From: a virus
IMG/VR virus record: IMGVR_UViG_3300041809_000017
Span: 1 to 23,384 of that record
DNA length: 23,384 bases
Strand: one strand, 5' to 3'
In this document: positions 4,391-23,384 of the stretch, piece after piece
Numbering within the stretch: position 1 is the first letter of the stretch
Layout: every line of letters starts with the position of its first letter
Notes under the pieces: model-generated
Told to the model about the DNA's origin: nothing
The model's input: the letters and a program-made list of their open reading frames with translations, nothing else
Databases searched by the model: none
Position numbers and translations under genes: made by a program

Positions 4391-4798
4391 ATGGCTGTAA
4401 ACGCAGCATACGACAACGTGTTATGGCCGGGTGGGGATGGCCTTCGTGTTCCCCAGGAACGAAGTGGGTTCAAGCCAACCTCCTCGCAAACAGGGCCGTC
4501 GCTTCAGACCTATGGGGAAGTTGACCTGGGAGCCATCGCCACAAGCCCCTATAACCTGAACACGCAGCAGGCTGGAGCGTCTTTGATTACCGTGACCCCC
4601 AGTGTTGCCCTGAACATCGTTCTTCCCGTGTGTCAGCCAGGGCAGAAGACGCTTGTGCAGAACAACAGCACTGCAAACTCGATCCAGGTCAGCGTCAGCG
4701 GCAACACGGCTAACAGCGCGACGGTTGGAACGAGTTCTGTTGCCCTTGTGGTGCAGACTGGAACCAACGGCGGTGTGACTCTGGTTACTGGAACCTAA
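4391..4798 (+). CDS. Beta-rich hypothetical virion protein (135 aa)
   Basis: The gene starts one base after the previous stop, behind AAAGGAG. Residues 1-40 are polar and irregular. From about residue 45 the sequence alternates hydrophobic and small polar residues (GASLITVTPSVALNIVLP), with many Thr, Ser, Val and Asn and frequent Gly. The segment VQNNSTANSIQVSV with a later GTNGGVTLVTGT end looks like the beta-sandwich or short beta-helix repeats seen in phage fibres and decoration proteins. No enzyme motif is visible. A head fibre or decoration role is a guess from composition and position between portal and scaffold. The stop TAA overlaps the next ATG (TAATG). Confidence 0.6.
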   Translation: MAVNAAYDNVLWPGGDGLRVPQERSGFKPTSSQTGPSLQTYGEVDLGAIATSPYNLNTQQAGASLITVTPSVALNIVLPVCQPGQKTLVQNNSTANSIQVSVSGNTANSATVGTSSVALVVQTGTNGGVTLVTGT

Positions 4799-5496
4799 TG
4801 GCGGAGCACATCCCCAACTCGGTGCGGGTGCGCGTTTGTCTTGCGCCCCGCTCTCAGCCCTTTGATGAGGCGATGGATTCGCTGAATCTGGCAATCCTCC
4901 ACGCGCAAAAGGCTGGATTCAGTGTCCTGCTGGAGAAGGTGCGCCGTGGATGCCCTGGATTTCAGAATGCAGGGCCAACATTGAACCACTTTATTAGGAA
5001 TGGGGATACGCACCTATTCATCGCTGCCGATGATGTGATCTTTCCTCTTGATGCCATCGTTCGTCTAGTGGAGGACGACAAGGATATTGTCAGTGGAATC
5101 TACCGCAAGAACATGGTTTTTGAACTGTCTCCGGCAAACTATGTCGATACCTGGCAGGAGTTTGAGGATAAATATAGAGCGGGTGGTCTGTACGAGACTA
5201 AGTTCGCAGCCTGCCACTCCCTAACCGTCAAGAGGCATGTCATCGAGAAGATGATGGAGGATTATCCTGAGTTAGCCTACGAGCAGGGAGACGAGAAGCA
5301 CTATGCTCTCTTTATCCCCATGATCCATGAGGGAAAGTGTTATCAGGATGACTGGGCGTTTTCCATCCGGGCACAGCAGAGCGGGTTCAAACTTTGGGAC
5401 GATTACAACTGCAAGTTGAAGCACTACTGCTATGAGTTTATGGGGTTTGAGGCTCTGGACGCGAAAATTGCACAGGAGGCGAAGGATGGCAACTAG
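4798..5496 (+). CDS. GT-A-fold glycosyltransferase-like protein
   Basis: This 232-residue protein has the layout of a small family-2-type glycosyltransferase. An N-terminal Rossmann-like half leads to a hydrophobic strand ending in an acidic pair, LFIAADDV (residues 73-80), in the place of the metal- and nucleotide-sugar-binding DxD motif. VSGIYRKN follows at 98-105. A second acidic motif, YQDDWAF (182-188), corresponds to the ED-x-x-F catalytic-base region. After it come SGFKLW and a conserved histidine at 209 (KLKHY), as in phage and bacterial GT-A enzymes. It would transfer a sugar from an activated donor to an unknown acceptor. It lies between a beta-rich virion protein and the scaffold gene, which makes a virion protein a plausible acceptor but does not prove it. 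Start is set by the TAATG overlap. Confidence 0.68.
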   Translation: MAEHIPNSVRVRVCLAPRSQPFDEAMDSLNLAILHAQKAGFSVLLEKVRRGCPGFQNAGPTLNHFIRNGDTHLFIAADDVIFPLDAIVRLVEDDKDIVSGIYRKNMVFELSPANYVDTWQEFEDKYRAGGLYETKFAACHSLTVKRHVIEKMMEDYPELAYEQGDEKHYALFIPMIHEGKCYQDDWAFSIRAQQSGFKLWDDYNCKLKHYCYEFMGFEALDAKIAQEAKDGN

Positions 5497-6448: not shown

Positions 6449-7504
6449 ATGGCCGACGTATCGCAACTTCCGTGGACTACATTTGGCGACATTGTGCAGA
6501 ACTATGCAACGCTGGATGCCCGATCCCCCTGGGTCAACGTGGCCCGCGTTCTCGACCGGACAACCCCGCTGCTCAGGGTCTTGCCGATGATCCCGTCCAA
6601 TCAGGTGATGTCGAATATCGCCACCCGAACGGACTCTCTTCCTGTGGCCTCGACGCGCCGCTGGAACGCCTTCACGCTTCCCACCGCCTCCAAGAACACC
6701 CCGTTGAACGATGGCATTATGAACCTCGAAGACTACTCCGAGGTTGACAAGCAGCTATGCGCAATCCAGAACGATCCGACCGCATGGCGCATGGATCAGG
6801 ATGCCAACCACATCGAGGGAATCCGTCAGAAGGCTGAATCGACCTTCTGGTATGGCAATCTCTCGCAAGACCCTGGTTCGATCAATGGACTCGCAACACG
6901 GTTCAACAACCTCGAATCCTACCCCAACGGCGATCAGTCGTGGCAACCGAATGTTCTCAGCAACGGTGCTACCACTGGCCCGGTCACAAGCATCTGGCTG
7001 GTCGAGTTTGGCCCGCAGAAGGTCTACGGAATCTATCCTCCCAACATGCCGGGTGGGTTGATGGTCGAAGACCTCGGTGAAGTGACGAAGCAGGGTGCAA
7101 CGGCAACCACAGCCGGAGGCCCGGTGCAGAACGGGTACATGCAGATGTACCTGACTCACCTTCACTGGATGTTTGGATTGCAGATTGCCGATGAACGGTG
7201 CGTCCAGCGCATCGCCAACGTCAATCCGACTGTACTGTCCTCGCCGGGAGACTTCGACGAGAACGTGCTGATCGACGCAATCAACTTCCTGCCTGGTCGC
7301 GGCGATGCCCCCGGAACCGTCATCTTCGTCAACCGCGCTATTGCAGCGCAGATTGACATTCGCTCGGTATCGCAGAAACTCAACGCGTACTACACACAAG
7401 ACCCGACTGACGGCAATGTGTGGGGCCGCAGAGTCACCCGATTCCAGGGAATCCCAATCCTACTGGCCGAGAAACTGGTCAACACCGAAACGCTTGTGAG
7501 CTAA
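6449..7504 (+). CDS. Major capsid protein, epsilon15 gp7 family (HK97 fold)
   Basis: This is a 351-residue coat protein that would form the icosahedral shell. The family is recognised from a chain of conserved blocks. TRTDSLPVASTRRWN is followed by an E-D-Y-S-E-V-D segment and a F-W-Y-G-N then G-L-A-T-R-F block. Then come GPVTSIWLVEFGPQKVYGIY and M-P-G-G-L, an RIANVN block after the aromatic loop, and a C-terminal FQGIPILLAEKLVNTE. These are characteristic of the major capsid proteins of epsilon15-like phages, which have the HK97 fold. ATG 6449 is preferred over the in-frame TTG at 6443 because AGGAAGGA (6435-6442) is spaced 6 nt from the ATG but only touches the TTG. It follows the scaffold gene and precedes the cement gene. 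Confidence 0.9.
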   Translation: MADVSQLPWTTFGDIVQNYATLDARSPWVNVARVLDRTTPLLRVLPMIPSNQVMSNIATRTDSLPVASTRRWNAFTLPTASKNTPLNDGIMNLEDYSEVDKQLCAIQNDPTAWRMDQDANHIEGIRQKAESTFWYGNLSQDPGSINGLATRFNNLESYPNGDQSWQPNVLSNGATTGPVTSIWLVEFGPQKVYGIYPPNMPGGLMVEDLGEVTKQGATATTAGGPVQNGYMQMYLTHLHWMFGLQIADERCVQRIANVNPTVLSSPGDFDENVLIDAINFLPGRGDAPGTVIFVNRAIAAQIDIRSVSQKLNAYYTQDPTDGNVWGRRVTRFQGIPILLAEKLVNTETLVS

Positions 7505-7514
7505 GGAGAAAACC

Positions 7515-8261
7515 ATGCCACAGTCTGACGCGCTCGTTTATTTTCATGGCACTGGTACTACGACAGGGCCGGTAACATCCACCGCCAATGTCTCCTCCTC
7601 TGGCTCTCAAGCCGGAACGGTGCTCACCATCACAGGTTCTCCCACTACTGGACAGTTTCAGGTTGGCCAGAGTGTCAGCATCGTTGGTGGTTTGGCCAAT
7701 ACCTTCATCACTGCGCTTGGTTCCGGCAGTGGAACGGCGGGCACCTATACGGTCAGCACGTCCTCCACGGTCGCATCCTACGCATCCGTCACGGCTCTGC
7801 CAAACACTCTGGGAGATGCCATCGGGACTGCCAGCGGATACTCCAATGTCGAAATCGACTTCGGAGCACCCAACAGCGGAGGCGTTTTCCCGAATATCGT
7901 TCAGTTCCCGTCCCTCACCGAGAAGGGCTACACCTTCCCTCCTGAAGTGGTTGGGTTTGGCGGGGTCGATTCGGGAGTCCACATCATCGTCACAGGTTAT
8001 GTGAACAACCTGACCAGCATCAACTTCGAGGTCTGCACATCGGCAGCGACCAATGCGACCTACAACTCAACCGGAAATCCAATCGCTTCTCGCAGTCTGA
8101 CCCTCGCGCAGTTGCAGGTAGTCGGGGCGCACTACTTCATCCCCGTCCCTGGATCGGCAATTCTGGAGTTCCTGCGTGTCTACATGGCACTCACGGGAAC
8201 TGCGGCAACTGCCGGAACTGCTGTCATGTGGTTTGGGCCGCGAGTTGGAGGAGAGCAGTAA
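7515..8261 (+). CDS. Capsid cement protein, Bbp16-like, with inserted beta module
   Basis: The protein has 248 residues, much longer than the roughly 110-150 residues I expect for Bbp16-type cement proteins. The C-terminal part (about 98-245) fits that family: an N-x-x-E-I-D-F-G start, strands around SINFEVCTSAATNATYN, S-R-S-L-T-L-A-Q-L-Q-V-V-G-A, then a final ILEFLRVYMALTGTAATAG and VMWFG. Cement proteins bind the outside of the coat lattice and stabilise it; in BPP-1 and epsilon15 they lie next to the coat gene, as here. The N-terminal part (33-90) is a separate Gly/Ser/Thr-rich beta module that also occurs twice in the tail nozzle protein. GGAGAAAACC precedes the start. The cement call is moderately firm; the role of the extra module is unknown. 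Confidence 0.65.
   Translation: MPQSDALVYFHGTGTTTGPVTSTANVSSSGSQAGTVLTITGSPTTGQFQVGQSVSIVGGLANTFITALGSGSGTAGTYTVSTSSTVASYASVTALPNTLGDAIGTASGYSNVEIDFGAPNSGGVFPNIVQFPSLTEKGYTFPPEVVGFGGVDSGVHIIVTGYVNNLTSINFEVCTSAATNATYNSTGNPIASRSLTLAQLQVVGAHYFIPVPGSAILEFLRVYMALTGTAATAGTAVMWFGPRVGGEQ
7611..7784 (+). repeat. Mobile beta module, copy 1 (cement protein residues 33-90)
   Basis: It reads GTVLTITGSPTTGQFQVGQS, then a G-S-G-S-G-T-A-G-T-Y block and a S-T-S-S-T-V-A-S close. The order of motifs matches two segments of the tail nozzle gene: V-L-T-[IV]-T, vG-Q, I/T-T-A-[LF]-G, GtGsaGtY and S-x-S. Similarity is in protein, not obviously in DNA. Confidence 0.75.
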
Positions 8262-8782
8262 TGATCGTTGAAGCCCTTTGCCTGAATGACGCGTGGGACA
8301 GTGTACGCTGTTTCTACTATGAGAAGGGAAGAACCTATCCCATCGACACCGAAAGCGAGATTGCCCGTATGACGGTGCGTCCCATGTCGTCAGGCAAGGT
8401 CGATCAGAAGACGGGAGAGATTGTAGCGGCAAAAGTCAGCCGCCCTTCTCTCCCTGTTTTCCAGTTTGACCGTGCCGCTCCTCTGGGGGCAACCGGAAAT
8501 GGTGTTCCGAGCGATTACACCTGCGACGATTGCGGGAAGAAGTGCAAGTCTCTCAACGAGCTTGGAACCCACACCCGCAGCAAGCATCCCAAGCAGCCTC
8601 TTGTCGATGAGACGGAAGAGGAGGCTGTGGTACGGACGGTGTGTACCTGCAAGCAGTGTGACCCTCACCAGACGTTCAATTCTCGGTCTGAATTGATGAA
8701 GCATCGGGGAGAAGTTCACAAGGCAAATTTCTTCAAAAAGGGATTCGGTCAGCAAGAGGGCGCGGTCACACAGGCCGCGTAA
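8261..8782 (+). CDS. Protein with two C2H2-type zinc-finger motifs
   Basis: This 173-residue protein has an N-terminal part (1-70) that looks like a small phage domain with strands around YYEKGRTYPID. Its second part holds two finger motifs. Finger 1 is C88-x2-C91-x12-H104-x4-H109, in YTCDDCGKKCKSLNELGTHT with RSKH after it. Finger 2 is C130-x2-C133-x14-H148-x4-H153, with FNSRSELMKHRGEVH. Both have the hydrophobic and Leu positions of classical C2H2 fingers. Start ATG 8261 overlaps the cement TAA (TAATG) and follows GGAGGAGAG; an upstream in-frame start would lie inside the cement gene. The position between cement and tail adaptor suggests a minor structural or assembly role, but DNA/RNA binding or protein contact are equally open. 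Confidence 0.65.
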   Translation: MIVEALCLNDAWDSVRCFYYEKGRTYPIDTESEIARMTVRPMSSGKVDQKTGEIVAAKVSRPSLPVFQFDRAAPLGATGNGVPSDYTCDDCGKKCKSLNELGTHTRSKHPKQPLVDETEEEAVVRTVCTCKQCDPHQTFNSRSELMKHRGEVHKANFFKKGFGQQEGAVTQAA

Positions 8783-8794
8783 GCGGAGGGTGAC

Positions 8795-9547
8795 GTGCCT
8801 TACTCGCAAGTATCCATCTCAAATCTCGCGCTCAATCGCATTGGTGCGCGTGGTCAGATCACCAGCATCAATGACAACAGCCCCAATGCTGTGAAGGTGT
8901 TGAACGTCTGGGACGCTGTGTTCCAGGAGGTATTATCGGAGCGCGATTGGCGCTTCGCTAAAACACGCGTTCAACTGCAACTGAGCAACATCACTCCGCT
9001 CTACACCTACAGGTACGCATGGGCATTGCCTACTGACCTTCTTCGGTTTGTTCGTCCCATGCGCAAGCCTCCAAGCCGACACGACTACTGGTGGGGATGG
9101 GGGCCGGAAGGAACAGGCTGGTATAACCGGCAAGACCCTCCGTTCTGGCCGTTTGACACTGATTACAAAATAGAGACTCTGACGGCGGGATGGACATCTC
9201 CCCTCACCAATCCCCCGACTCCCTTTCCAGGGCCGTTTCCATCGGGCCGGTATGCCATCACAAACTATGGTGGATGTCAGGTTCCGGCCATGATTACCTA
9301 CATCCAACTCATCACCGACTACAGCCAGTTGATGCCTGGATTTGTGAATTGCCTCGCAAACCGGCTTGCGATGGAGTTGTCTATCGGAGTGACGGAGGAC
9401 AAACAGAAGTTCCAGATGATGCAGGAGATGTATAAGGAGAGCTTGAACTCTGCCGAAGCGCAGAATGAATGCCTTGATTTCAGTTGGGACGAGGACGGAA
9501 GTACCTCTTGGGAAGATGCAGGACGTTGGGTGAGAGGATACCGGTAG
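8795..9547 (+). CDS. Tail adaptor protein (tail tubular protein A / T7 gp11-like)
   Basis: The 250-residue protein opens with [20 protein letters not shown], then the [18 protein letters not shown] pattern. [16 protein letters not shown] and [13 protein letters not shown] follow. This is the signature of the adaptor that sits between portal and nozzle in T7- and epsilon15-like podoviruses. Its C-terminal helix contains repeated acidic and aromatic residues. The start is GTG at 8795, just after GGAGG (8785-8789); no ATG fits. It is immediately followed by the nozzle gene, the usual gp11-gp12 order. The assignment is solid at family level. Confidence 0.8.
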
Positions 9548-9552
9548 GAACT

Positions 9553-12500
9553 ATGCCTCCTAAACTCTACACGGTCAGGAACGCACTGAACTCTGGGGAA
9601 ATTTCGGAGCTAATCGCGTTCCGCGAGGACATTTCCAAGTACAGTTCTTCCTGTCTGACTCTGGAAAACTCGATTGCTCTAGTGGAGGGTGGTGCAAAGA
9701 AGATGCCGGGAACCTACTTCGCTGGCACTACAGAGAATGGCGGCTCGATGTTTACTGGTTCCATCGCAACAACCGTTCTTACGGTTACAGCGATCAATTA
9801 TGGGGTATTGCAGGTAGGGCAGACAATCGTTGGCCCCGGAGTCACAACAGGAACTACGATCACAGCGTTTGGCAGTGGTACGGGTAGCGCGGGAAGTTAT
9901 GCAATCAGCACATCGCAGACATTATCCAGTGAGCAGATGCAGACGGCCAGTAGTGGGAAGAGCCGTCTAGTCCCCTTTCAGTTCTCGACCGCACAGGGTG
10001 CGATCCTTGAGTTCTCAGCGGGGATTGTCCGTATTTGGGAAGGGGCAACCCCGGGGGACTGGTCGCTGGGGCTGGCGCTGAATGGCCCGACGGCGAGCAA
10101 CTACAACCCCGTGACAGCCTACGTCGCCGGAAACATCGTGCAGATTGGCCCGACATGCTTCATCCTGCCTACCAGCGGGCCTACGTGGGGCATCCTGAGC
10201 ATCGCTGCGCCATATGGGGCGACCAACGCCAACACGGTACCTATCACGCTCACGCTCAACTCCGCGGACTCCTTGGTGGTGACGGTGACTGGGAGTGCTC
10301 CAAACCAAGGCATCAATATCGCCTTGGCGAACACCACCCGCGCTAACAATGCGGCGACGGCTATTCAGGCGGCGATCCAGGCTCTCGTCTCGCTAAACTC
10401 CGGTACGAACAACTACGTGAGCCTTGCTGCGTGGACGGTCACTCCCGACACGATCTATTACGCAACTCCACCCATCGTTCTGCCTACCACCTACTCGGCG
10501 AACTGGAACAACGTAAGCGTTCTCGGTGAGTGTGTGGCTTCCAATCAGAATGACGAGTACCCGCTCAACGTTCTGGGAGGCTGGAACTCGGCCTACTGGG
10601 AGATGTACACGCCGGTTGCAGAAGCGCCGATTGAGCTGGTGACGCCGTATCTTGAGGCCGACCTGTTCGCTCTGGACTGCTCGACGCAGAGCGCGGATGT
10701 TCTGTGGGTCTTCCATCCAAACTACCCGCCTGCCTGCATCTCTCGCCTGAGCGCGAATAGCTGGCAGTACAGCCAATCGCTCGCTGGCCAGCAACCCGGT
10801 GAGGCGTCGTATCGCGGGACTCTCGGGATTGCCAAGACCGGATACTCGGCGCTGGGGCAGTCGATTATTGCTGTGACACAAGCAAGCTTCTGCGATGTCA
10901 GCATCGCCAAGACGACGATGGTGTTTGCCCAAGGGTCGCGTATCTACATCAACCTGTGTGCCGGGATGGTGCAGCTGAATGAGGGAGAGTTTATCGTCTT
11001 CCACCCGTCAACCTCTACATGGTTCGACGCCAATGGCAACTTTAGTTTTGCGCTAGGAGATCCCCAAACTCTCGTTAGCTTTGTCGGCTCAATATCCGGA
11101 ACGGTGCTGACGGTGACGCAAGTAAACTACGGTACGATTCAGCATTTCCAAGGACTCAACTGGGACGGCACAACCGGCAACCGGATTACGTCATTTGGCA
11201 CGGGGACTGGTGGTGTAGGAACCTACAACCTCCTCGCAAGTTCGTCCGTCGCAGCAGGTACAACCTTCATCGGCGCGGTACTAATAGACTCAGCGGGATA
11301 TATCGCCTACGTTGGCGGTGGATTTGCCGTACAGGTATCTCCGATGTTCGCGGCGCCCGGAGACTACCCAGCCTGCGGGACGCTCTATCAGGAACGCCTC
11401 TGCGTGGGCGGGAGTGACAATAACCCCACGCAACTCAACGGCAGCGTTCAGGACGACTACCCCGACTTCATCTGTGATCCTAATGAGGACGACTACGCGA
11501 TTCAGTTTACCCTGGTTTCAAATCAGGTCAACCAACTCATCAACATGATTGGCACACCGAACGCCCTGTTGATTGGAACATCGGGCGGAGTGTGGGTGAT
11601 GAATGGAAGTAATGGATCATCTCTGAGTCAGACCAATGTGAATGCTTCGGTGCAATCGACTTATGGGGTAAGTGCATTGCAGCCGCAGTTGGTCAATGGC
11701 TCAGCTATCTTCGTTTCCCGATCGGCGCGGATCGTGAACTTCCTCGTCTACAGTTTCACAACGAACGCATGGGACAACAATGACCTTACCCGCCTGAATC
11801 GCAATATCACCTTGGGGCCATCTGAGGCAACCTCTGGTATTGCTCAGACCGCGTTTCAGATAGAGCCATATCCGATCTTCTGGGCCGTGAGAAACGATGG
11901 TCAACTCATCGGTTTAGTCTTCAATGTACAGGATCAGGTATACGCATGGTTCCGCGTCAACATGACTATACAAGGTGGAAGCATCGAATCGGTTGCTGTC
12001 ATCAGCGGAGAGAACCAAGAGGATCAGGTGGTGGTGGTGGTCAACCGCACCATCAATGGAGTGACACAGAGGTACGTTGAATACTTCATGCCGCAGGAGT
12101 TGTTTGGTCAACTCTCCAATGCCTTTTTCGTACACTGTGGTCAGCAGTTACAAGGGGCTCCCGCTGTTGCTATCACGGGAATAACCAACGGAAGTAGTTG
12201 TGTGGTATCGACCAAGACACCGCATGGATTCACTACAGGAATGACGGTGCAGATTACCGGCGTAACCGGTATGGTTTCGCCAACTGGTCAGTCCATCAAT
12301 CAGGATGCGACCCAAGCCTATACCATCACTTACGATTCGGCTACGGAGTTCACGCTGAATGGGATGGACACATCGACCTGGACTCCTTATGTGAGCGGGG
12401 GTTCGGTCGAGCAGGTATTCAATGAAGTAACAGGACTGAGTTATCTTCTTGGTCAGACGGTGGTTGCTGTGGGCGATGGTGCGATCATCCTTCAGCCTAC

Positions 12501-12888
12501 AGTGGTCACGTCCGACTCAATCACGTTCCCGTACTATTGCAACCTCATCACCATCGGTATTCCGTATACCACAACGATACAGCCCACCAACCCATCCTTG
12601 TCCTCGCAGGGAGCTACGACGCGGGGAATGCCCCAGAAGCTTAATCGCGCATCCCTGTCACTCTATCAGTCGATGGGAGGGCAGGTGGGAACAGACCTTA
12701 ACTACATGTACGATTTGGTTTATGGAACAGGAACACAACTACAGACTCCAACGATGACTACAGGACTGCTTACGGTAGACTTGGATTGTGACTGGAGCGA
12801 GTCATCCACGCTCTATATACAGCAATCCGACCCATTGCCATTTTGTGTAAGGGGGATCATTTTCAGAATGACGGCGAACCCGGACTAA
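9553..12888 (+). CDS. Tail nozzle protein (tail tubular protein B / T7 gp12-like), enlarged by inserted domains
   Basis: The predicted 1111 residues exceed the roughly 650-850 typical of this group. The N-terminus ([20 protein letters not shown], then AFREDISKY and S-C-L-T-L-E-N-S) and the early [11 protein letters not shown] fit the phage nozzle pattern. The centre has a RLCVGG block, DDYAIQF, and [14 protein letters not shown] followed by [16 protein letters not shown], all standard for this propeller-like protein. Added segments are visible: beta module copies at residues 69-129 and 512-572; a Thr/Asn-rich segment with a [13 protein letters not shown] helix at about 216-296; and at 874-954 a domain resembling the E1 FCCH-like fold of many phage tail proteins ([18 protein letters not shown]). 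ATG 9553 follows GGTAGGA; an in-frame upstream start lies inside the adaptor gene. Confidence 0.75.
9757..9939 (+). repeat. Mobile beta module, copy 2 (nozzle residues 69-129)
   Basis: It contains [20 protein letters not shown], then [17 protein letters not shown] and STSQTLSS. It lies directly after the conserved GTYFAG of the nozzle N-terminus, as if inserted into a surface loop. Confidence 0.75.
11086..11268 (+). repeat. Mobile beta module, copy 3 (nozzle residues 512-572)
   Basis: It contains [19 protein letters not shown], then [16 protein letters not shown] and a S-S-S-V-A-A-G-T-T close. It differs from copy 2 mainly in the middle, where VGQT is replaced by a [10 protein letters not shown] loop. 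Confidence 0.72.
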
Positions 12889-12889
12889 C

Positions 12890-13324
12890 ATGAGATACGA
12901 AGTAGTTCCACTCAAACCGGAGCATATTGACAAGCTGCTTGCAGGGTCAGCAATCCCTGTTGGTCTGGATCGCCGCGCCTACTTTTCTCCGGGCAGTGCT
13001 GGATGCTGTTTGCTGGTCGATGAAGTTCCGGTTTTCGCAGGCGGCATTGTTGACCTGCATTGGAGTCGAGGAGAGGGATGGTTTCTTCCCACCCATTTCT
13101 TCTATACGCATGTCAAGACATGCCTAAGAAGCCTGCGAGAATACATCCCTCGCCTCGCCGCAGAGGGTGGATTCAGACGACTGCAAGCCACCTGTATCGC
13201 GGGGGTGTCGTCTACGATCCTCAAGCATCTTGGGTTTACCTTTGAAGGGACGATGGCAAAGTTTGGGCCAAGCGGGGAGACATGCGATATGTGGTCAAGG
13301 ACTTTTGATTTGGAGGCAACATGA
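12890..13324 (+). CDS. T7 gp13-like / GNAT-fold internal virion-region protein
   Basis: The protein has 144 residues. The layout is that of a small GNAT-like domain: an N-terminal MRYEVVPLKPEHIDKLL helix-strand, a central G-x-V-D and W-F-L strand pair, then a helix with CLRSLREYIPRLAAEGGFRR. A closing strand is followed by SSTILKHLGFTFEG, like the C-terminal L-x-x-L-G-F of acetyltransferases. Phage proteins with this degenerate fold include the T7 gp13 family, found next to the internal virion proteins, as here. No clear acetyl-CoA loop (R/Q-x-x-G-x-G/A) is seen, so catalysis is doubtful. The gene has little SD and probably depends on coupling to the nozzle stop two bases upstream. Its own TGA overlaps the next ATG. 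Confidence 0.58.
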   Translation: MRYEVVPLKPEHIDKLLAGSAIPVGLDRRAYFSPGSAGCCLLVDEVPVFAGGIVDLHWSRGEGWFLPTHFFYTHVKTCLRSLREYIPRLAAEGGFRRLQATCIAGVSSTILKHLGFTFEGTMAKFGPSGETCDMWSRTFDLEAT

Positions 13325-13836
13325 CTCCGCAGGCAGCGGCTCCATCTACGGGAATTTCGACAGGTCTATTCGGACTTGGTGCGCTTACCTCTGTTCTGAG
13401 TGGCGTGGGCGGAATCATGGGTGGACAGGAACAGAAGTCTGCCTACGACTACAACGCTGACGTTACCCTTCAGAACATGCGCGACCAGATGGTTACAAAC
13501 CAGCAGAAGTATTCCAATCTGGTTGGCAAACAGGCAAGCGGATATGCGGCATCGGGCGTGGACATTACATCGGGATCGCCCCTTCTGGTGATGGCTGCTA
13601 CGGCTGCAAGGGGAGGAGAACAGGGACAGAAGATTGAGGATGCCGGAACAGAAGAGGCTGCGATGCAGCGATACTACGGCAAGATAGCCGCTTTCAGTGG
13701 AACAATGAGCGGCATTGGTAGCTTCCTGCAAGGAATCACAAAGTCGGCAACCTCGTACTATGGTGCCACAGCACCTACCCCCGCTCCGAGCGTCCCTTCC
13801 ATCAACCCCGATGATGACCCCATGAGGGGAGGATAA
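13321..13836 (+). CDS. Internal virion protein, T7 gp14-like
   Basis: This 171-residue protein has a Gly/Leu-rich N-terminal hydrophobic stretch (GLFGLGALTSVLSGVGGIMG), then helices with many Asn, Gln and Ala. The motif QASGYAASGVDITSGSP is characteristic of gp14-type internal proteins. A further Gly-rich helix near the C-terminus and a Pro-rich acidic tail follow. In T7 this protein is ejected first and forms a pore in the outer membrane. The start overlaps the previous stop (ATGA), with TTGGAGG just before. Identity is by motif and by position before two larger internal proteins. Confidence 0.65.
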   Translation: MTPQAAAPSTGISTGLFGLGALTSVLSGVGGIMGGQEQKSAYDYNADVTLQNMRDQMVTNQQKYSNLVGKQASGYAASGVDITSGSPLLVMAATAARGGEQGQKIEDAGTEEAAMQRYYGKIAAFSGTMSGIGSFLQGITKSATSYYGATAPTPAPSVPSINPDDDPMRGG

Positions 13837-13837
13837 A

Positions 13838-15586
13838 GTGGCACAAATACCAGGAGTTCCGACAATTGAGCCAGTAGAGAAGCCACTCATGCAGCCGCGT
13901 GAGGCGGGCAAGGTGGGTGCTGCAATTTCGGGACTGGCGGATACATCGGGAGACATTGCGAATACAGGGCTTGCGTTGCAGGGGCATATCCGCGAGGCCC
14001 AGGCCAGTGTCGATGAGCTTGCCGCACAGAATGAGTTGGCAGCAGCAGATGAGGCATATCAGGTACAGCTTGCCAAGACAACCAACTCTCGCGATGTAGA
14101 GGGTGTGACGCAGGAGCATAACGATACCCTGAATGAGATTTCTCGCAAGTGGTCAAACTCCCCTGCCTCCAGAGAGATTCAGATGCACACAGAGGCTCTA
14201 CGGCCTCGCGGGGAACATCTGGGGCAGATAAAGCAAATCGACCTGATGAGCAAGGAATGGGATGCACAGACTGAAATTCAGATGCAGACGCTTATCCCTC
14301 AACTGGTCACTGCACAACGCAATGGCGACAAAGGGCAGGTGGACTACATCAATGGGTACATCGACCATCTGTATGATGATGGCAAGCAGAAGGGACTCAT
14401 CTCTGATGCCGATAAAGACTTGGCAATCAATAAGATGCAGATTCAGGTTCGCCAGCAACTTAACGATGCGGTTATCTCCAGTGCAGACCCGAAGGAACGA
14501 TTAGCGGCGATTCAGCAACTCAAGAGTGGTGGAAGTGGGCCGCTGAATCTTGCTGGACTTGCTGCGGGAGATGTAGCCGCATTACGCACTCAGGCAGAAT
14601 CTATGAATGAACGGCTAGACAATCTAGCCGAAGCGCAGAACCTCAACCGCGACTTGAACATCGTGCAGAATGCTTTTGCCGCTCCGGAGTACAAGAACAA
14701 CTATGAGGCCAGAGTCAACTCATTGCAGGATGGAGACTGGCTGGTGCAGCACGGCATCGTGAGCGAGGATGGATCACCGAATCGTGAGATGGCCCAGAAG
14801 TTGATTCAGGAAACCAATGCTCAGAGAGCAGAATGGGAGAAGCAGCAGACTGACCGCGATCAGAAGGCTCTCGATCAGTACGGCCCGAATGTGAGCAAGA
14901 TGACACGCGCTCAGATTGAGCAGTTGCCCGGAGAGTCTGAGGGCGGTATCTCCCCACGCGCAAGAGCTACACTTCTGAGCCGGTGGGATGAGAATTATCA
15001 TATTGGATTGTCAGAACGCACTGCTGCGCGTATTGCCAACATTCAGGAACGGCAGGAGAAGATGGAGGAGATTAAGTTCAACAGCGATCAGACGCGAGGA
15101 CAGGTATCACTGGACATGGCATCTGGCAAGGTTCTTACTCAGTCTGACATTTGGGAGATTCCGGGGATCACGAATGATGACCGGCAGAAACTTTTAGACC
15201 AACAGAAGGCGGGAAACAAGTACGTCAACGATGTTCTTACTGGGTTCAAAGACTTGCCTCTTCCCGCTGAGGAACAGAACAGATTGGCTACGGTTTTCTA
15301 CGATCAAGTACAGGCAGGAGATTTGCGTGGGCCAGCGATCACAACACTAGGAGAGTCCCTAAAGAACCAGGCGAAACAGAGGAATGCAGCGCAATGGATT
15401 GACTCTCTATTCTATGGGACACCAACTGCTACGGATGTTTCTCGCAACGCTGACAGAGTGGGGCAACTCGCAGATTATCTCAAGACCAAGAATGCTCCTG
15501 CACGTCCTAAAACGGTTCCCGATGACTATGTGTGGAATCCTCAAGGAAACAATGGGAAGGGATCATGGCGGGCACCGAAGCAGTAG
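13838..15586 (+). CDS. Large helical internal virion protein (T7 gp15 position)
   Basis: The protein has 582 residues and starts at GTG 13838 behind AGGGGAGGA. It is Gln-, Asp- and Ala-rich and helical throughout, with alternating charged stretches such as IQERQEKMEEIKFNSDQTRG. The C-terminus is basic, polar and Gly/Asn-rich. No enzymatic motif was found. It lies between the gp14-like and gp16-like genes, as T7 gp15 does, and has a similar size class (T7 gp15 is about 750 residues). A role as part of the internal core or periplasmic ejection tube follows from position and composition. It overlaps the next gene by 22 nt. Confidence 0.55.
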   Translation: MAQIPGVPTIEPVEKPLMQPREAGKVGAAISGLADTSGDIANTGLALQGHIREAQASVDELAAQNELAAADEAYQVQLAKTTNSRDVEGVTQEHNDTLNEISRKWSNSPASREIQMHTEALRPRGEHLGQIKQIDLMSKEWDAQTEIQMQTLIPQLVTAQRNGDKGQVDYINGYIDHLYDDGKQKGLISDADKDLAINKMQIQVRQQLNDAVISSADPKERLAAIQQLKSGGSGPLNLAGLAAGDVAALRTQAESMNERLDNLAEAQNLNRDLNIVQNAFAAPEYKNNYEARVNSLQDGDWLVQHGIVSEDGSPNREMAQKLIQETNAQRAEWEKQQTDRDQKALDQYGPNVSKMTRAQIEQLPGESEGGISPRARATLLSRWDENYHIGLSERTAARIANIQERQEKMEEIKFNSDQTRGQVSLDMASGKVLTQSDIWEIPGITNDDRQKLLDQQKAGNKYVNDVLTGFKDLPLPAEEQNRLATVFYDQVQAGDLRGPAITTLGESLKNQAKQRNAAQWIDSLFYGTPTATDVSRNADRVGQLADYLKTKNAPARPKTVPDDYVWNPQGNNGKGSWRAPKQ

Positions 15587-18500
15587 AATACGATGCCCAG
15601 GGTAAGCCTTTACAGGCTTCGCGGGGTGCGGCTGAGTATGATGCAAGCGGTAATCCCATTACTGCGCCATCAACCGCGTCTCCAATAAATCCTGACGAGT
15701 ACCCCAAAGTAGCACAGTCCCTTGTCTATTCTCGGATGTTCAACAAGCCTCCGTCTGCTGCATACCAGATGCACGATCAGATTGCAGAACAGATGGACTC
15801 ATTGGGGGTCAAGTCCGGGCCTTCAAACATCGCATCGGAAATGTGGCAGGACTTCAAGGTGGGTGGACAAAGTTCCATCATTGGGCTGGCTACAAGAGAG
15901 AAACTTCCCGATACTTTGCAGAACCCAGGGATGCTTGACCATTTTATGGAAGGTATGACCCAGATGATTTCCGACTTGCCTATTTATGCAATATCAGGCG
16001 CGGCGGGTGGGGCAGCAGGTACGGAAGTTCCTGTAGTTGGCAATACAGCGGGCGCGGCTATCGGAGCCTTCGCTATTCCGGCTGGTCTACGAGAATCTCT
16101 AGTGTTGGGAATCAAACAGGGGAAAATACAGAACTTCAGCCAACTGTGGCATACGACTTTAGATTTGGCTAAGGAAACTACTAAAGGAGCGATCATAGGA
16201 CTCGCTACGTTTGGGGCTGGTGAGGCTACACTTCCCTTTGCCAAGCCTGCCGTAGCTATGGCTATGAAGAGGGCACAACAGGCGGCGGCAATGACTGTAG
16301 CGGGGTCTGCGGTTGAAGGACGTATGCCTACGGCCCAGGACTTCGCCATTAATGCGGCGATGTTTACTGCGATGCACTACACCGCTGCGGCGTTCGGGAC
16401 GGCTGATATTGCGGCCCCAAAGGTGCATGAGAAGTTGCTGGAGATATACAAGGATACCGGTGTTCATCCCGCCGACGTTGCTGCTGAGGCACTAAAGCGG
16501 TCAGAAGCAGGACGTGGTTCGGAGCCGGTTGACCCGATTGACCGTCTGGACGAGATTGCGCGGGAAGCAAAGGAGGTTGCGGGTGGAGAAGAGGCCAAGC
16601 CGAAAGAGGGAGCAAAGCCGGAAGCAAAGCCAACTGAGGAGCCTGCTACCCCTGAACTTCCGCCCGCTGAACTTCGTCCGGCCATCCGACAGGGAGACGA
16701 GATTACCGAAGGCAAGGACGGCGAGACTCACGATGAAACTATTGCGCGAACCGGCGTAGAGGAGACTCCCGAAACCGAGCGAGGGTTTGTAGACAAAGAC
16801 GGCAGTTGGCACAACCGCGAAGAGGCTCTGGCAAAGGTTCGGCAGAATGAGCCGGAAGTGGCGAAGGCGTGGGAACAGGTCACACAAGACCCCGATGCAG
16901 AGTTTCATAGTGAGGACTACAACGAAGCGCGTCAACGGTCTACAGGTATCAAGAACGCTTCAGTGGACGCGCAGCGTGAGCAGATGGGGTTGCCGCCGAT
17001 AGAGTCTCCCATGCGGGTGCTCGATCCTGACAACTGGGATGTGGCGAAAGAGGATGTCAATTCTGGCCGCATTGACCCACTGAAAATTGCAGAAGGTATC
17101 AACAATAATCCACGAAACTTGTCTGCCGAAGAGACGAACGCGATGAACTATTATCGCTCCCAACTCTCCACCCAGCACAAAGCCGTCATGGATGCTGTTG
17201 AGAAAGCTAGGGAAGAGAACGACCCTAATACTGAGGCAAGAGCAAGAGAGAATCTGCAAGAGATAGAAGACAAGATCAACACGGTTGACGAGGCAACAAA
17301 GAGGGCCGGAACAGAATGGGGCCTGACTGGGCAGATGCGCCAGCGCATGATTGCTGAAGACTATTCTCTGGATCGCCTGCTCCAAAGGGCGAGGATTGCC
17401 AGCAAGACGGGCGAGGTATCGCCTGAAGTTCGTGACCGTCTTGAGACTCTTTCAAGTCAGTTGGAGTTGGCGAACAAGCAACTTGAAGAGTATCGGTCGA
17501 AGCAATCACAGCGCGAAGCACAGCGCACGGTAGAGAAGATCAAGGCGGATACGGCGAGGGTTGAGCGCAAGGGTGAACGTGCAGAGATTCGCGTCAAGTT
17601 GAAAATGGAGTTTGACAACCTCATCAAAGACCTGGATAAAACTCTATCCTCCCGTATGTCGGCAAACCCATTCCTTGATCCTGAGATTTTGGGACAGTTG
17701 GGAAAGATTGCCAGAAACCGTGTTGAATCGGGCCTGACGCGCATCGAGGATGTAGTAGACGACATTCATGGTGCTCTGACCAATATCGGCTATCAGGTCA
17801 GTAAGCGCGATCTTCGGGATGCAATCAGCGGATATGGCAAGACAATAGAGATGAGCAAGGAGGCCGTAGACGTTGCCCTGCGGGAAGTGCGAAGACAAGG
17901 CAAGCTCATCTCTGCGCTCGAAGACGCGGAAGCAAAGCAAATACCTTCGCGTAGCGGGTTACAAAGGGATGCGCAGTCTGATCGTGTACGGGAACTCCAG
18001 CGTCAAGTGAAACAGGCGATGCGTGAGTCCGGTATTGATGTGCGCAAGTCGCAGACCCCAGAACGCCAGTGGAAAACAGCCCTGGATTCCGTGAAAACTC
18101 GTCTGCGCAACCAGATTGACGACCTCACCAAACAGTTGAAGACGGGAGAGAAAGAGGCCAAACGTACCGGAATTGTCTACGACGATGAGGCAAAGGCTCT
18201 CAAGGAACAGCGTGACAACCTGAAGGAGTTGCTGCGAATTGCAACACAAGAACCTCAGAAGGTATCGGCATATCAAGAGAGCCGTATTAGGGCGGCAGAG
18301 AAACAACTCGCTGAATTGCAACGCAAGGTCAAAGAGAAAGACCTTACTCCACAGCAGAGACGCGAGGGGCCAGAAACCAAAGAGATTACCGCATTGCAGG
18401 AAAAGATTGCCAAGATGCGTGAAACCTATCGCCAGATGGTGAAGGAGTCGAAAGCAAAGACCCCTGCGGAGATTGCGGAACAACGTATCAAGGCGGCTGC

Positions 18501-20241: not shown

Positions 20242-20306
20242 TTTCAGACTTTGATTTGCAGATGATTGGGCTGCACAATGCAGAGACACCTTACTGGTGG
20301 GTTTGA
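20238..20306 (+). CDS. 22-residue micro-ORF linking internal-protein and ATP-grasp genes
   Basis: The ATG at 20238 overlaps the TGA of the giant internal gene (ATGA), and its TGA (20304-20306) overlaps the ATG of the next gene (TGATG). It reads MISDFDLQMIGLHNAETPYW, then WV. The same double-overlap arrangement is seen at 2185-2283. The SD is weak and no family is recognised. Without it, ribosomes would have to cross 64 nt to reach the next start, so it may act as a coupling device; it could also be chance. Confidence 0.4.
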   Translation: MISDFDLQMIGLHNAETPYWWV

Positions 20307-21562
20307 TGGAAGATTACTCTACCAAGTCGGTCTGTGTGGTGGACAATGGGGTGTATACCTGTCTCGCGGAGAAACTGTCTGAGACGTTCGGTAAGGTCTG
20401 GTATCACTCTCCGTGGGTAGCTGACTATCCCTCTTCAACCCACACGGAACTTGGCAAGGGATTCCCCACGTTTGAGCGCGTAGACGACATCTGGGACATC
20501 TTGGATGAGGTAGACCTGTTTGTGTTCCCTGAGAGCCACCAGGGGCCGTTGCAGAACTATCTGACGGACATTGGCAAGCGCGTTTGGGGATCGCGCACCG
20601 GAGACGAACTGGAATTGTATCGGGAGGAATCTAAAGAGTACATAGATAGTTTAGGCATCCTTCAGCCTCCCTACGAGGTTGTGAAGGGAATGACAGCCCT
20701 GCGCAAGTACATCAAGAGCCGCGACAAAGAGAAGATGTGGGTGAAGATCAGCCGGACGCGAGGCGACACGGAAACCTTCTCGGTCGAGGGCTACGAACTC
20801 AGCAAGAACCATCTGGACGAACTGGAAGCAGAGTTTGGCCCAATGGCAGAGTATAGGGAGTTTGTCATTGAGGATAACCTGCCTGATACCTACGACTTAG
20901 CAATAGACACCTATTGTATTGATGGAAAGTTCCCTTCTAAGTCATTGATGGGTAACGAACAAAAGGATCAAGGATATGTTTGTGTAGTCAAGGACTGGGA
21001 AGACTTCCCGAAGACAATGCGGGAGAACTACGAGAAGTTGAGTCCTGCTCTAAAGGGGTACGGCTATCGCAACTTCTTTGCAATGGAGCATCGCACTGGC
21101 AAGGACAAGATGTACCTGAGCGATCCCTGTTGCCGCGTGGGGTCGCCGGTCTTTGAGTTGGAATTGAACATGATGGCTAATCTTGCCGACATTCTCTGGC
21201 AGGGGGCCGGAGGGGTGCTGGTAGAGCCGGAGTACAGGGGAAAGTATGGATATGAGATTCTGGTGCAAAGTCAGTGGGTTGACCAACATCCTCTTCTGGT
21301 ACAGTTCCCTGAGAAGTACCGTGACCAGATCAAGTTCCGTTATGCCTCGCAGTTCCCTGATGGCCTATGGATACTGCCGCAGAAGGCGGGGCCAATCTTC
21401 GGTGCCATCGTATCCTATGGAGATAGCATTGATGCTTGCGTTGCCGAAATCGAGGAGATTAGCAGCCAGATCAAGGGCCAGAATGTTGAGTCATTTACGG
21501 GAAGCGCAGAGACGTTGAAGGCGAACCTGAAAGAGTTGGCAAGCTGGGGTTATACAATCTGA
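20306..21562 (+). CDS. ATP-grasp-like ligase (PurD / peptide-ligase type)
   Basis: The protein has 418 residues. The plan fits the ATP-grasp fold. An N-terminal preATP-grasp part (1-95) has VVDNG and a F-V-F-P-E strand end. W-G-S-R-T-G-D-E-L-E-L-Y-R-E-E-S-K (94-110) and a Y-E-V-V strand correspond to the K-x-x-A/x-x-G-I-P-x-P region of PurD-like enzymes. MWVKISRTRGDTETFSV (144-160) takes the ATP-lysine and glycine-rich loop place. YREFVIEDNLPDTYDLAIDT (183-202) corresponds to the V-E-E-F strand. SDPCCRVGSPVFELEL (272-287) corresponds to the magnesium-binding N-x-R-x-G-D-P-E loop, with altered residues. Such enzymes join a carboxylate to an amine using ATP. The substrate is unknown. Loop changes mean activity is not assured. 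ATG 20306 is chosen for the TGATG overlap. Confidence 0.55.
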   Translation: MEDYSTKSVCVVDNGVYTCLAEKLSETFGKVWYHSPWVADYPSSTHTELGKGFPTFERVDDIWDILDEVDLFVFPESHQGPLQNYLTDIGKRVWGSRTGDELELYREESKEYIDSLGILQPPYEVVKGMTALRKYIKSRDKEKMWVKISRTRGDTETFSVEGYELSKNHLDELEAEFGPMAEYREFVIEDNLPDTYDLAIDTYCIDGKFPSKSLMGNEQKDQGYVCVVKDWEDFPKTMRENYEKLSPALKGYGYRNFFAMEHRTGKDKMYLSDPCCRVGSPVFELELNMMANLADILWQGAGGVLVEPEYRGKYGYEILVQSQWVDQHPLLVQFPEKYRDQIKFRYASQFPDGLWILPQKAGPIFGAIVSYGDSIDACVAEIEEISSQIKGQNVESFTGSAETLKANLKELASWGYTI

Positions 21563-21574
21563 TTGGAGGGTATT

Positions 21575-22021
21575 ATGCGTACACGATTTCTGTTCTTTAC
21601 GTTGGCCGTAGTCGTTCTCTTGATCGCGGGTCTGTGCTCGATTGGAGCGCAACAGGTGAACCCTATAAGCGGAGTTACTTATGACTGGGCGGCGGTTTCT
21701 GGAACCGGACAGTTGGGGGGATACCTGTACCAGTATCAGAACGGAATTACCTCCGGTTCTAGTAACTTCACGATTGACTGGGGTGTGACGGGAACCGCTC
21801 CATCGGTCTGCACCTTTCGTGTAGAGGGAAGCTCCGATGCGGTAGCCTGGACGGGATTGGATGCAACCGCACCATCGGCGGATTCGGCTCCGTGTACGTC
21901 TTCTAATCTCCTGTCTATCGCCTATAAGCCTGCCCGATTTATCCGTATCAATATCGTGACATACACCGCTGGAGATTCAACAACCAAGGTGATATTTCAC
22001 TATACAAGGGGGTCGATGTGA
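21575..22021 (+). CDS. Secreted beta-sandwich protein with Sec signal peptide
   Basis: The 148-residue protein begins with a classical signal peptide: MRTR, then FLFFTLAVVVLLIAGLCSIG, and an A-QQ cleavage site around residue 24. It has no lipobox, because the Cys context is AGLC. The mature part is Gly/Ser/Thr-rich with W-G-V, S-S-D-x-x-x-W and ARFIRINIVTYTAGDSTTKV. That pattern is seen in small phage beta-sandwich proteins that display S-x-D-x-W and aromatic R-x-N strands. ATG 21575 follows GGAGGG by 4 nt; the TTG at 21563 would add four residues but lies on the SD itself. It directly precedes two further signal-peptide genes. Function is unknown; a tail-tip or surface role is inferred. Confidence 0.62.
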   Translation: MRTRFLFFTLAVVVLLIAGLCSIGAQQVNPISGVTYDWAAVSGTGQLGGYLYQYQNGITSGSSNFTIDWGVTGTAPSVCTFRVEGSSDAVAWTGLDATAPSADSAPCTSSNLLSIAYKPARFIRINIVTYTAGDSTTKVIFHYTRGSM

Positions 22022-22890
22022 AACGAGTCCTTGCACTTCTCATGGCTTTAACAACAGTCACAGCTTTCTCTCAGTCTCCGGTGTATGGGATTCCAGGCAC
22101 CGCTGGTGCCGTAGCTCTAGCCAACGGAACAACCGCGACTACTCAGCCTTACGCCGGGGATGCGACGACCAAGGTTGCTACGGATCAGTTTGTGCAGAAC
22201 GCCATCAACTATTCGATGGCGACAGTTCCGCTGACCCTCAGCACCGGCACATATTCGTTCGATGCAGCATCGACTTGTGCGCCGACGATTGGTTTTACGG
22301 CGAGTGGAAACATCAGCGCGATAGGGACAATCTATTCGGGCGGTACTGGCTGCGTAGTAGGTGACCTGCTGTCCGTTGGCGGCGGAAACCACGACGCGAT
22401 TGTTCAAGTAGCAACACTGACCGGATCGGCCGTGGCGTCTCTCAACATCGTCTACGGCGGTACTGGGTATACCTCAGCCATCAACATTGCTACTGGAGCG
22501 ACTTCTTCCATTCCGTTCACGTTCCTCTTGTCCGGTGCCCTGAGCGGCAACGTGACTTTGGTGATGACGAATGGAACATATCTGACGCAGAGCAACCAGT
22601 GGATATTTGCCGACAACACAACCGGCAATCCCACCTACGCGGTGAAGGTCTGCGTCGCTGGAGCGACGGACGCTTGCGCTGCGGGAGGCCGTACTGTCAC
22701 GCTGGTTGAGGGTACGAACAATTCTACCTCTACGATCTTGCAGACAGACGGCGCGGCGAACGTGGATCTGGCGATTGGGTATCTCCCAAGCCTCCAGTTG
22801 GGTCTGAGCGGAAGCAAACTCCCCCTTTGCGAGTCCAACGGAGTTATCTATGCTGGAACTAATACGGTAGGGGTATTGGCTTGCCCATAG
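22018..22890 (+). CDS. Tail-fibre-like secreted protein with GGTGY repeats
   Basis: The predicted 290 residues start at GTG 22018, overlapping the previous TGA (GTGA). The N-terminus, MKRVLALLMALTTVTAFSQS, is a good Sec signal peptide. TTATTQPYAGDATTKVATDQ is the collar-type motif common at the start of phage fibre and side-tail proteins. IYSGGTGCVVGDLLSVGGGN and later IVYGGTGYTSAINI are two units of the GGTGY-type beta repeat seen in phage tail proteins. Hydrophobic and Gly/Thr alternation continues to the end, where a Cys near the C-terminus is noted. It is probably a fibre or its adaptor. The signal peptide is odd for a virion component assembled in the cytoplasm. Confidence 0.62.
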   Translation: MKRVLALLMALTTVTAFSQSPVYGIPGTAGAVALANGTTATTQPYAGDATTKVATDQFVQNAINYSMATVPLTLSTGTYSFDAASTCAPTIGFTASGNISAIGTIYSGGTGCVVGDLLSVGGGNHDAIVQVATLTGSAVASLNIVYGGTGYTSAINIATGATSSIPFTFLLSGALSGNVTLVMTNGTYLTQSNQWIFADNTTGNPTYAVKVCVAGATDACAAGGRTVTLVEGTNNSTSTILQTDGAANVDLAIGYLPSLQLGLSGSKLPLCESNGVIYAGTNTVGVLACP

Positions 22891-22897
22891 GAGCAGC

Positions 22898-22921
22898 ATG
22901 AAACTGACGGTGACGAGGTAG
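22898..22921 (+). CDS. Seven-codon minigene candidate before the fibre gene
   Basis: ATG at 22898 lies 4-5 nt after TAGGAG and runs MKLTVTR to TAG 22919-22921, ending two bases before the next ATG. It could be a translational leader feeding the fibre start at 22924, or a chance reading in the 33-nt gap. The evidence is only the SD and the tight spacing. Confidence 0.25.
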   Translation: MKLTVTR

Positions 22922-22923
22922 AT

Positions 22924-23384
22924 ATGAAACGGATTGCTCTATGGCTCTCGATGCTCCTGATTCCTTTCGCGGCTCACGCCACAGTGACCAACCAGACACT
23001 TAGCGTTTCATTCACATGTACGGGAAGCACGGGGCCTTATCCCTTTACGTTCCCTATCAGCGGGGCTACCGGATTGCAGATTACGCAGAATGGGACTGTT
23101 CTAGCTTCTACCGCCTACACTGTGACTCCAGTAAACAATAACTATGCCAATGGTGGGAGCGTTACGCTCAATTCGGTATGTCCCTCCGCACAGACGTTGG
23201 TGATTCTACGAGTGACCCCACTCACTCAGACCACTGTATTTACAGACAACATGCCTACCCCGATGGCAAGCATTGGAAACGCAGTAGACAAACTGACAGA
23301 GATTGTGCAAGAGAAGTCGGAGTATTTGTTTAACATTCCTTACTGTTCGGGGTTTAGCCCATCGGTGGGGCAGACCGTTGCATA
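22924..23384 (+). CDS. Tail fibre protein, T7 gp17-type N-terminal domain with signal peptide (3' truncated by window)
   Basis: ATG 22924 follows GAGG by about 6 nt; 153 codons are seen before the window ends. MKRIALWLSMLLIPFAAHA is a signal peptide with an A-H-A cleavage site. After it come TLSVSFTCTG, the short aromatic F-T-F-P-I motif, LQITQNGTVLASTAYTVTP, GGSVTLNS and LVILRVTPLTQTTVFTDN. A helix with AVDKLTEIVQEKSEYLF closes the visible part. This order is that of the T7 tail-fibre N-terminal domain, which anchors the fibre to the tail. The receptor-binding tip lies outside the window. Fibre identity is quite sure; the signal peptide is unexpected and needs an explanation. Confidence 0.75.
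   Translation, partial: MKRIALWLSMLLIPFAAHATVTNQTLSVSFTCTGSTGPYPFTFPISGATGLQITQNGTVLASTAYTVTPVNNNYANGGSVTLNSVCPSAQTLVILRVTPLTQTTVFTDNMPTPMASIGNAVDKLTEIVQEKSEYLFNIPYCSGFSPSVGQTVA

Follow-up and report, generated by a model that had tools for sequence, protein, structure and literature searches.

The window, meaning the whole 23,384-base stretch of DNA analysed here, is a podovirus fragment from IMG/VR. By profile matches it encodes a terminase, a podovirus portal, a GP7-type capsid protein and gp11- and gp12-like tail proteins, followed by large uncharacterised genes, a gene for a 421-aa protein (20297–21562, + strand) and then the three genes under study, referred to here as genes 1–3. The 421-aa protein is leaderless and had no match in Pfam or PHROG. 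It is 58–80% identical among relatives, in which its gene likewise lies directly upstream of a module of predicted exported fibre proteins, and we used it as a marker gene. By eye it is ATP-grasp-like, and it may be a fibre- or envelope-modifying enzyme. Elsewhere in the window, a 232-aa protein encoded in the portal–capsid interval (4798–5496) looks glycosyltransferase-like by eye and has no Pfam match, and a phage protein in the capsid–tail interval (8261–8779) has a C2H2 zinc-finger-like match with an E-value of 5e-5, just under the curated cut-off.

All three genes are on the + strand, have good ribosome sites at their starts and begin with a predicted Sec signal peptide. Gene 1 (21575–22021, 148 aa) has an ATG start and a GGAGG ribosome site, and its N-terminus reads MRTRFLFFTLAVVVLLIAGLCSIGA followed by QQ. 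Its predicted leader (21575–21649) is 25 aa long and ends in IGA before Q, leaving a mature part of 123 aa with two cysteines. The protein has a weak F5/8-type C resemblance (E-value 0.004, under the cut-off), and a single-sequence fold model was of too poor a quality to use. The GTG start of gene 2 (22018–22890) overlaps the gene 1 stop. Its N-terminus, MKRVLALLMALTTVTAFS followed by QS, contains an 18-aa predicted leader (22018–22071) ending in AFS before Q, with an alternative site after VTA and before F; the mature part is 272 aa with six cysteines. Judged by its sequence, gene 2 is fibre-like, because it carries the fibre-type motif ATTQPYAGDATTKVATDQFV (ATTQ..D.TTKVATDQFV) and matches the distal portion of a fibre, likewise leadered, from a related phage, L092 (29.5% identity over 193 aa, E-value 1e-6).

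Gene 3 (22924–23384) is cut at the contig end, with 153 aa present, and is predicted to be a leadered tail fibre. It begins with MKRIALWLSMLLIPFAAHA followed by TV, and shows the layout expected of a substrate for Sec and signal peptidase I: a basic start, then a hydrophobic core, with small residues at both −3 and −1. The predicted leader (22924–22980, 19 aa, AHA before T) ends exactly where a T7 gp17-type tail-anchor domain begins (22981–23340), a domain with cysteines at positions 13 and 67 in mature numbering. The first-pass annotation had recognised this domain, and both profile and fold bear it out: alignments to PHROG tail-fibre profiles begin at residue 20, immediately past the leader, and in an AlphaFold model of the mature domain the pLDDT block means are about 90 over residues 11–80. 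The best solved structural neighbours of this model include the fibre anchors of Carin-1, LME-1, HRP29, P-SCSP1u and T7, with moderate TM-scores of about 0.44–0.54. In the alignment with the Carin-1 fibre (TVPTN), which was solved on the virion, mature residue 1 (the T of TVTNQ) pairs with its residue 2; leader removal would therefore restore the usual N-terminus of a leaderless fibre. Profile, fold and this alignment together identify the domain as a gp17-type anchor. In the primary product the 19-aa leader precedes this domain, which would become N-terminal only after the predicted cleavage.

We called signal peptides by one fixed rule written for this analysis, together with controls. The rule called genes 1–3 and none of the 16 other genes in the window. 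Across the clade, it passed 35 of 54 proteins among the first four genes downstream of the 421-aa gene and 2 of 89 upstream of it, one of these two being a leadered fibre; the background rate, from antisense open reading frames, was 41 in 753. One to several consecutive genes past the marker gene carry leaders in relatives. On three larger contigs, strong calls were concentrated in the fibre module, the remainder being a lipoprotein downstream of the fibre module on contig G001, two small proteins on G012 (one a lipoprotein, the other cysteine-rich and exported), and weak or antisense calls. The first-pass annotation had described genes 1–3 as fibre-like proteins with Sec leaders and A-x-A-type cleavage sites. 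The leaders of all three were called and genes 2 and 3 have fibre evidence, but gene 1 has none beyond its weak F5/8-type C match, and the strict A-x-A form is seen in gene 3 (AHA) but not in gene 1 (I-G-A) or gene 2 (A-F-S).

To place gene 3 among its relatives, we retrieved anchor domains from viral contigs via a domain alignment and the 421-aa gene. After removal of duplicates, the first set comprised 66 domains, of which 16 had a leader and 50 had none. The 16 leaders are 18–21 aa long and end in alanine at the domain boundary, with mostly alanine at −3; the automatic rule overlooked two of them, L009 and L015 (because of a tie between sites in one and a basic residue at −2 in the other), which we assigned by inspection. 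Each of the 16 leadered domains has exactly two cysteines in its first 100 residues. In a tree of 64 domains, the leadered domains formed a clade of 18 with two leaderless members, L004 and L101, which are nested within it and lack the leader and both cysteines together; the tree rests on few columns, and leader and cysteines changed independently only about twice in it, so that it is not a statistical proof alone. A later scan added six distinct domains (L136, L137, L150, L152, L154/L155 and L156), fetched when the hypothesis had already been recorded, and in all six the leader ends in alanine at the boundary and the cysteine count is exactly two. In the combined set, every one of the 22 distinct leadered domains has the cysteine pair in its first 100 residues, compared with 0 of 50 leaderless ones. 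The first-pass annotation had proposed looking for the same leader on this domain in related phages, and these 22 distinct versions supply it.

These comparisons bear on whether the leaders are real. Wrongly placed start codons or chance hydrophobic stretches could imitate leaders, as the antisense calls illustrate. Such an artefact is hardly credible here, given the good ribosome sites at the three starts and the position of the leader, which ends at the same domain boundary, with alanine at −1, in all 22 leadered domains; furthermore, an open hydrophobic frame was found upstream of none of the 50 leaderless anchor domains. It had also been suggested that an uncut leader might tether the fibre to the inner membrane. 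We consider this very improbable: alanine is always found at −1 and a small or aliphatic residue at −3, the hydrophobic core is short, the boundary falls exactly at the domain, and removal of the leader restores the N-terminus of a virion-bound fibre.

The association between leaders and cysteines extends beyond the anchor domain. The 46 complete leadered fibre-module proteins fall into 18 sequence clusters and all contain cysteine, at 19.8 per 1,000 aa. Their mature cysteine count ranges from 2 to 42 and is even in 43 and odd in 3 (even in 32 of 35 in the first set and 11 of 11 in the later set), although the proteins are partly related and binomial figures overstate the certainty. Cleavage sites for these counts were set by hand; this adjustment of the automatic sites shifted parity either way (L090 became odd and L137 even). 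Among the controls, the 34 leaderless gp17-type fibres that are complete contain 2.7 cysteines per 1,000 aa, with 12 lacking cysteine and no surplus of even counts in the other 22 (8 even), and upstream virion genes have 4.6 per 1,000 aa, with even counts in 31 of 50.

Cysteine pairs are present or absent together with the leader and are also seen in unrelated neighbours that share only the leader, a pattern that folding in an oxidising compartment would produce; we conclude that the leaders are very probably used and cut, and that the leadered fibres are very probably exported, cleaved and oxidised. The leader could instead be inert or only partly used, with fibres folding in the cytoplasm and their cysteine pairs oxidising after lysis. 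Oxidation after release is chemically possible, and the gp12-like tail protein of the window has 15 cysteines and no leader. However, the cysteine pairs track the leader without exception, fibres of this family that lack a leader are cysteine-poor, and diverged phages have retained a strong hydrophobic leader whose cleavage site is ideal, all of which makes an inert leader improbable. The gp12-like protein itself (9553–12888) is unusual in this respect among the leaderless virion proteins of the window. Homologues of DsbA and Thioredoxin_2 were absent from the clade contigs, and disulfide formation would therefore fall to host enzymes.

Several relatives carry variant modules. In L099 (11819–12895) and L101 (11558–12631), the anchor protein is short (about 358 aa), leaderless and cysteine-free, and the next gene is leadered; in L101 this leadered protein has 1,119 aa and 20 mature cysteines, and its L099 equivalent is cut at the contig end. 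From its sequence, this arrangement resembles a fibre in two parts, of which the base is cytoplasmic and the distal part exported. L092 encodes two leadered gp17-type fibres (6796–8922 and 11593–17352) flanking the marker gene. Leadered proteins are also present in the same region of two distant phages, L104 (14388–19157, with Ig-like domains) and L113 (15786–17418), in which the marker gene product is 33–39% identical, and export may thus occur beyond this clade. A small exported family with a VGTC or AGTC start and an invariant cysteine pair was seen in L007 (11271–11795) and seven relatives (alignment A5); it is restricted to this phage clade except for a 35% match to a Methanosarcina virus protein. 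Past the fibre genes, L005 (16434–16856), L007 (17536–18048) and L101 (18975–19439) encode small lipobox lipoproteins that may function in lysis (spanin-like).

We also searched for related proteins in hosts, cultured phages and the literature. The 421-aa gene and the anchor domain had no match in 84,980 prokaryote genomes, searched for host and prophage copies. Cultured phages yielded only distant relatives, at about 34% identity, and four further clade proteins had no match among them except the VGTC-family protein (the Methanosarcina virus match). Klebsiella phage BUCT711 was considered as a leadered relative and rejected: the match runs from query residue 14 and the annotated start lies five residues inside it (locus 2516 versus 2501), such that there is no leader. 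Two papers touch on signal peptides in phages: phage DGR proteins are reported to lack them (PMC6199706), and Bacteroides phages are reported to have them, with no assignment to fibres in the passages found (PMC5723332). The first-pass annotation knew of no well-described system of this kind, and we likewise found no description of exported tailed-phage fibres in the open-access literature searched, a partial selection that did not include bioRxiv preprints.

In well-studied tailed phages, fibres are made in the cytoplasm. The known gp17-type fibres, such as those of T7, Carin-1 (Dpo36 in 8ck1) and LME-1 (orf22 in 9efk), share with gene 3 the N-terminal anchor domain (by profile and fold), its N-terminal boundary once the leader is removed, and a position among late tail genes. 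They are leaderless, cysteine-poor and cytoplasm-made, whereas the fibres of this clade have a Sec leader and paired cysteines.

A parallel for export is found among the coat proteins of filamentous phages, such as pIII, a virion adhesin with a Sec leader that is disulfide-bonded outside the inner membrane, in phages that assemble by extrusion without lysis. The clade fibres resemble it as predicted Sec-leadered adhesins with disulfides formed outside the inner membrane, but the sequences are unrelated and the clade phages are tailed, with a portal and a terminase. The window itself does not class with filamentous phages, containing a terminase, a podovirus portal, a GP7-type capsid and tail genes, and relatives have a lysozyme gene past the fibre genes. 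Late joining outside the cytoplasm also has a precedent, as T4 fibres and the P22 tailspike attach to particles in extracts. That attachment is laboratory complementation with cytoplasmic proteins; in this clade, exported fibres would normally take this route. The earlier conclusion that secretion before lysis would prevent normal assembly is not necessary, because once the cell has opened, tails could acquire their fibres outside the cytoplasm.

On the reading we prefer, the tail fibres and their fibre-module neighbours would be made as Sec pre-proteins, exported by the host Sec translocon and cut by signal peptidase I, giving a fibre whose N-terminus matches that of the cytoplasm-made fibres of related phages. 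Beyond the inner membrane, where conditions are oxidising, host enzymes would then form disulfides, among them a predicted Cys13–Cys67 bond in the anchor domain and several others in the shaft. The first of these steps is strongly supported as a prediction, and the second strongly though indirectly. For the third step we infer docking outside the cytoplasm: mature fibres would be held there while fibreless particles are built inside, and at lysis the fibres would join the tail via the gp17-type anchor. In the L099 and L101 branch, the anchor would be cytoplasmic and the exported distal protein would be added later, outside.

Docking is favoured because the anchor domain has been kept and is normally the sole one on its contig: 13 contigs have one each and a 14th has two, both leadered, though contigs may be incomplete and a second, leaderless fibre could be missed. 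Without this anchor on the virion, the phages would apparently be fibreless. The main rival holds that the exported, oxidised proteins stay off virions and are released or held at the cell surface, where they would prevent superinfection, strip off polysaccharide or serve as decoys. Export and disulfides support it as they do docking, and several leadered fibre neighbours lack an anchor domain. The first-pass annotation had raised a role of this sort, in acting on other cells or blocking superinfection; it keeps some standing, but does not explain why the virion anchor fold and its N-terminal boundary are retained, normally once per contig, and we consider it unlikely. That the fibres are exported through Sec, oxidised and docked onto tails at or after lysis is, in our view, fairly probable. 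We hold it somewhat probable that export, oxidation and joining to virions that stay fibreless until lysis or later make up the normal life cycle of the whole clade, with virions probably completed outside the inner membrane.

In the textbook view, tailed phages assemble wholly in the cytoplasm. If the reading proposed here is true, a fibre-exporting clade needs a second assembly site and gains disulfide-hardened fibres in return. Its fibres would meet the cell's own surface before release, tying assembly to superinfection and to the sharing of fibres between co-infecting phages. A leader combined with an even cysteine count would offer a simple sequence signature for further cases, and such genes risk being annotated as host secreted proteins.
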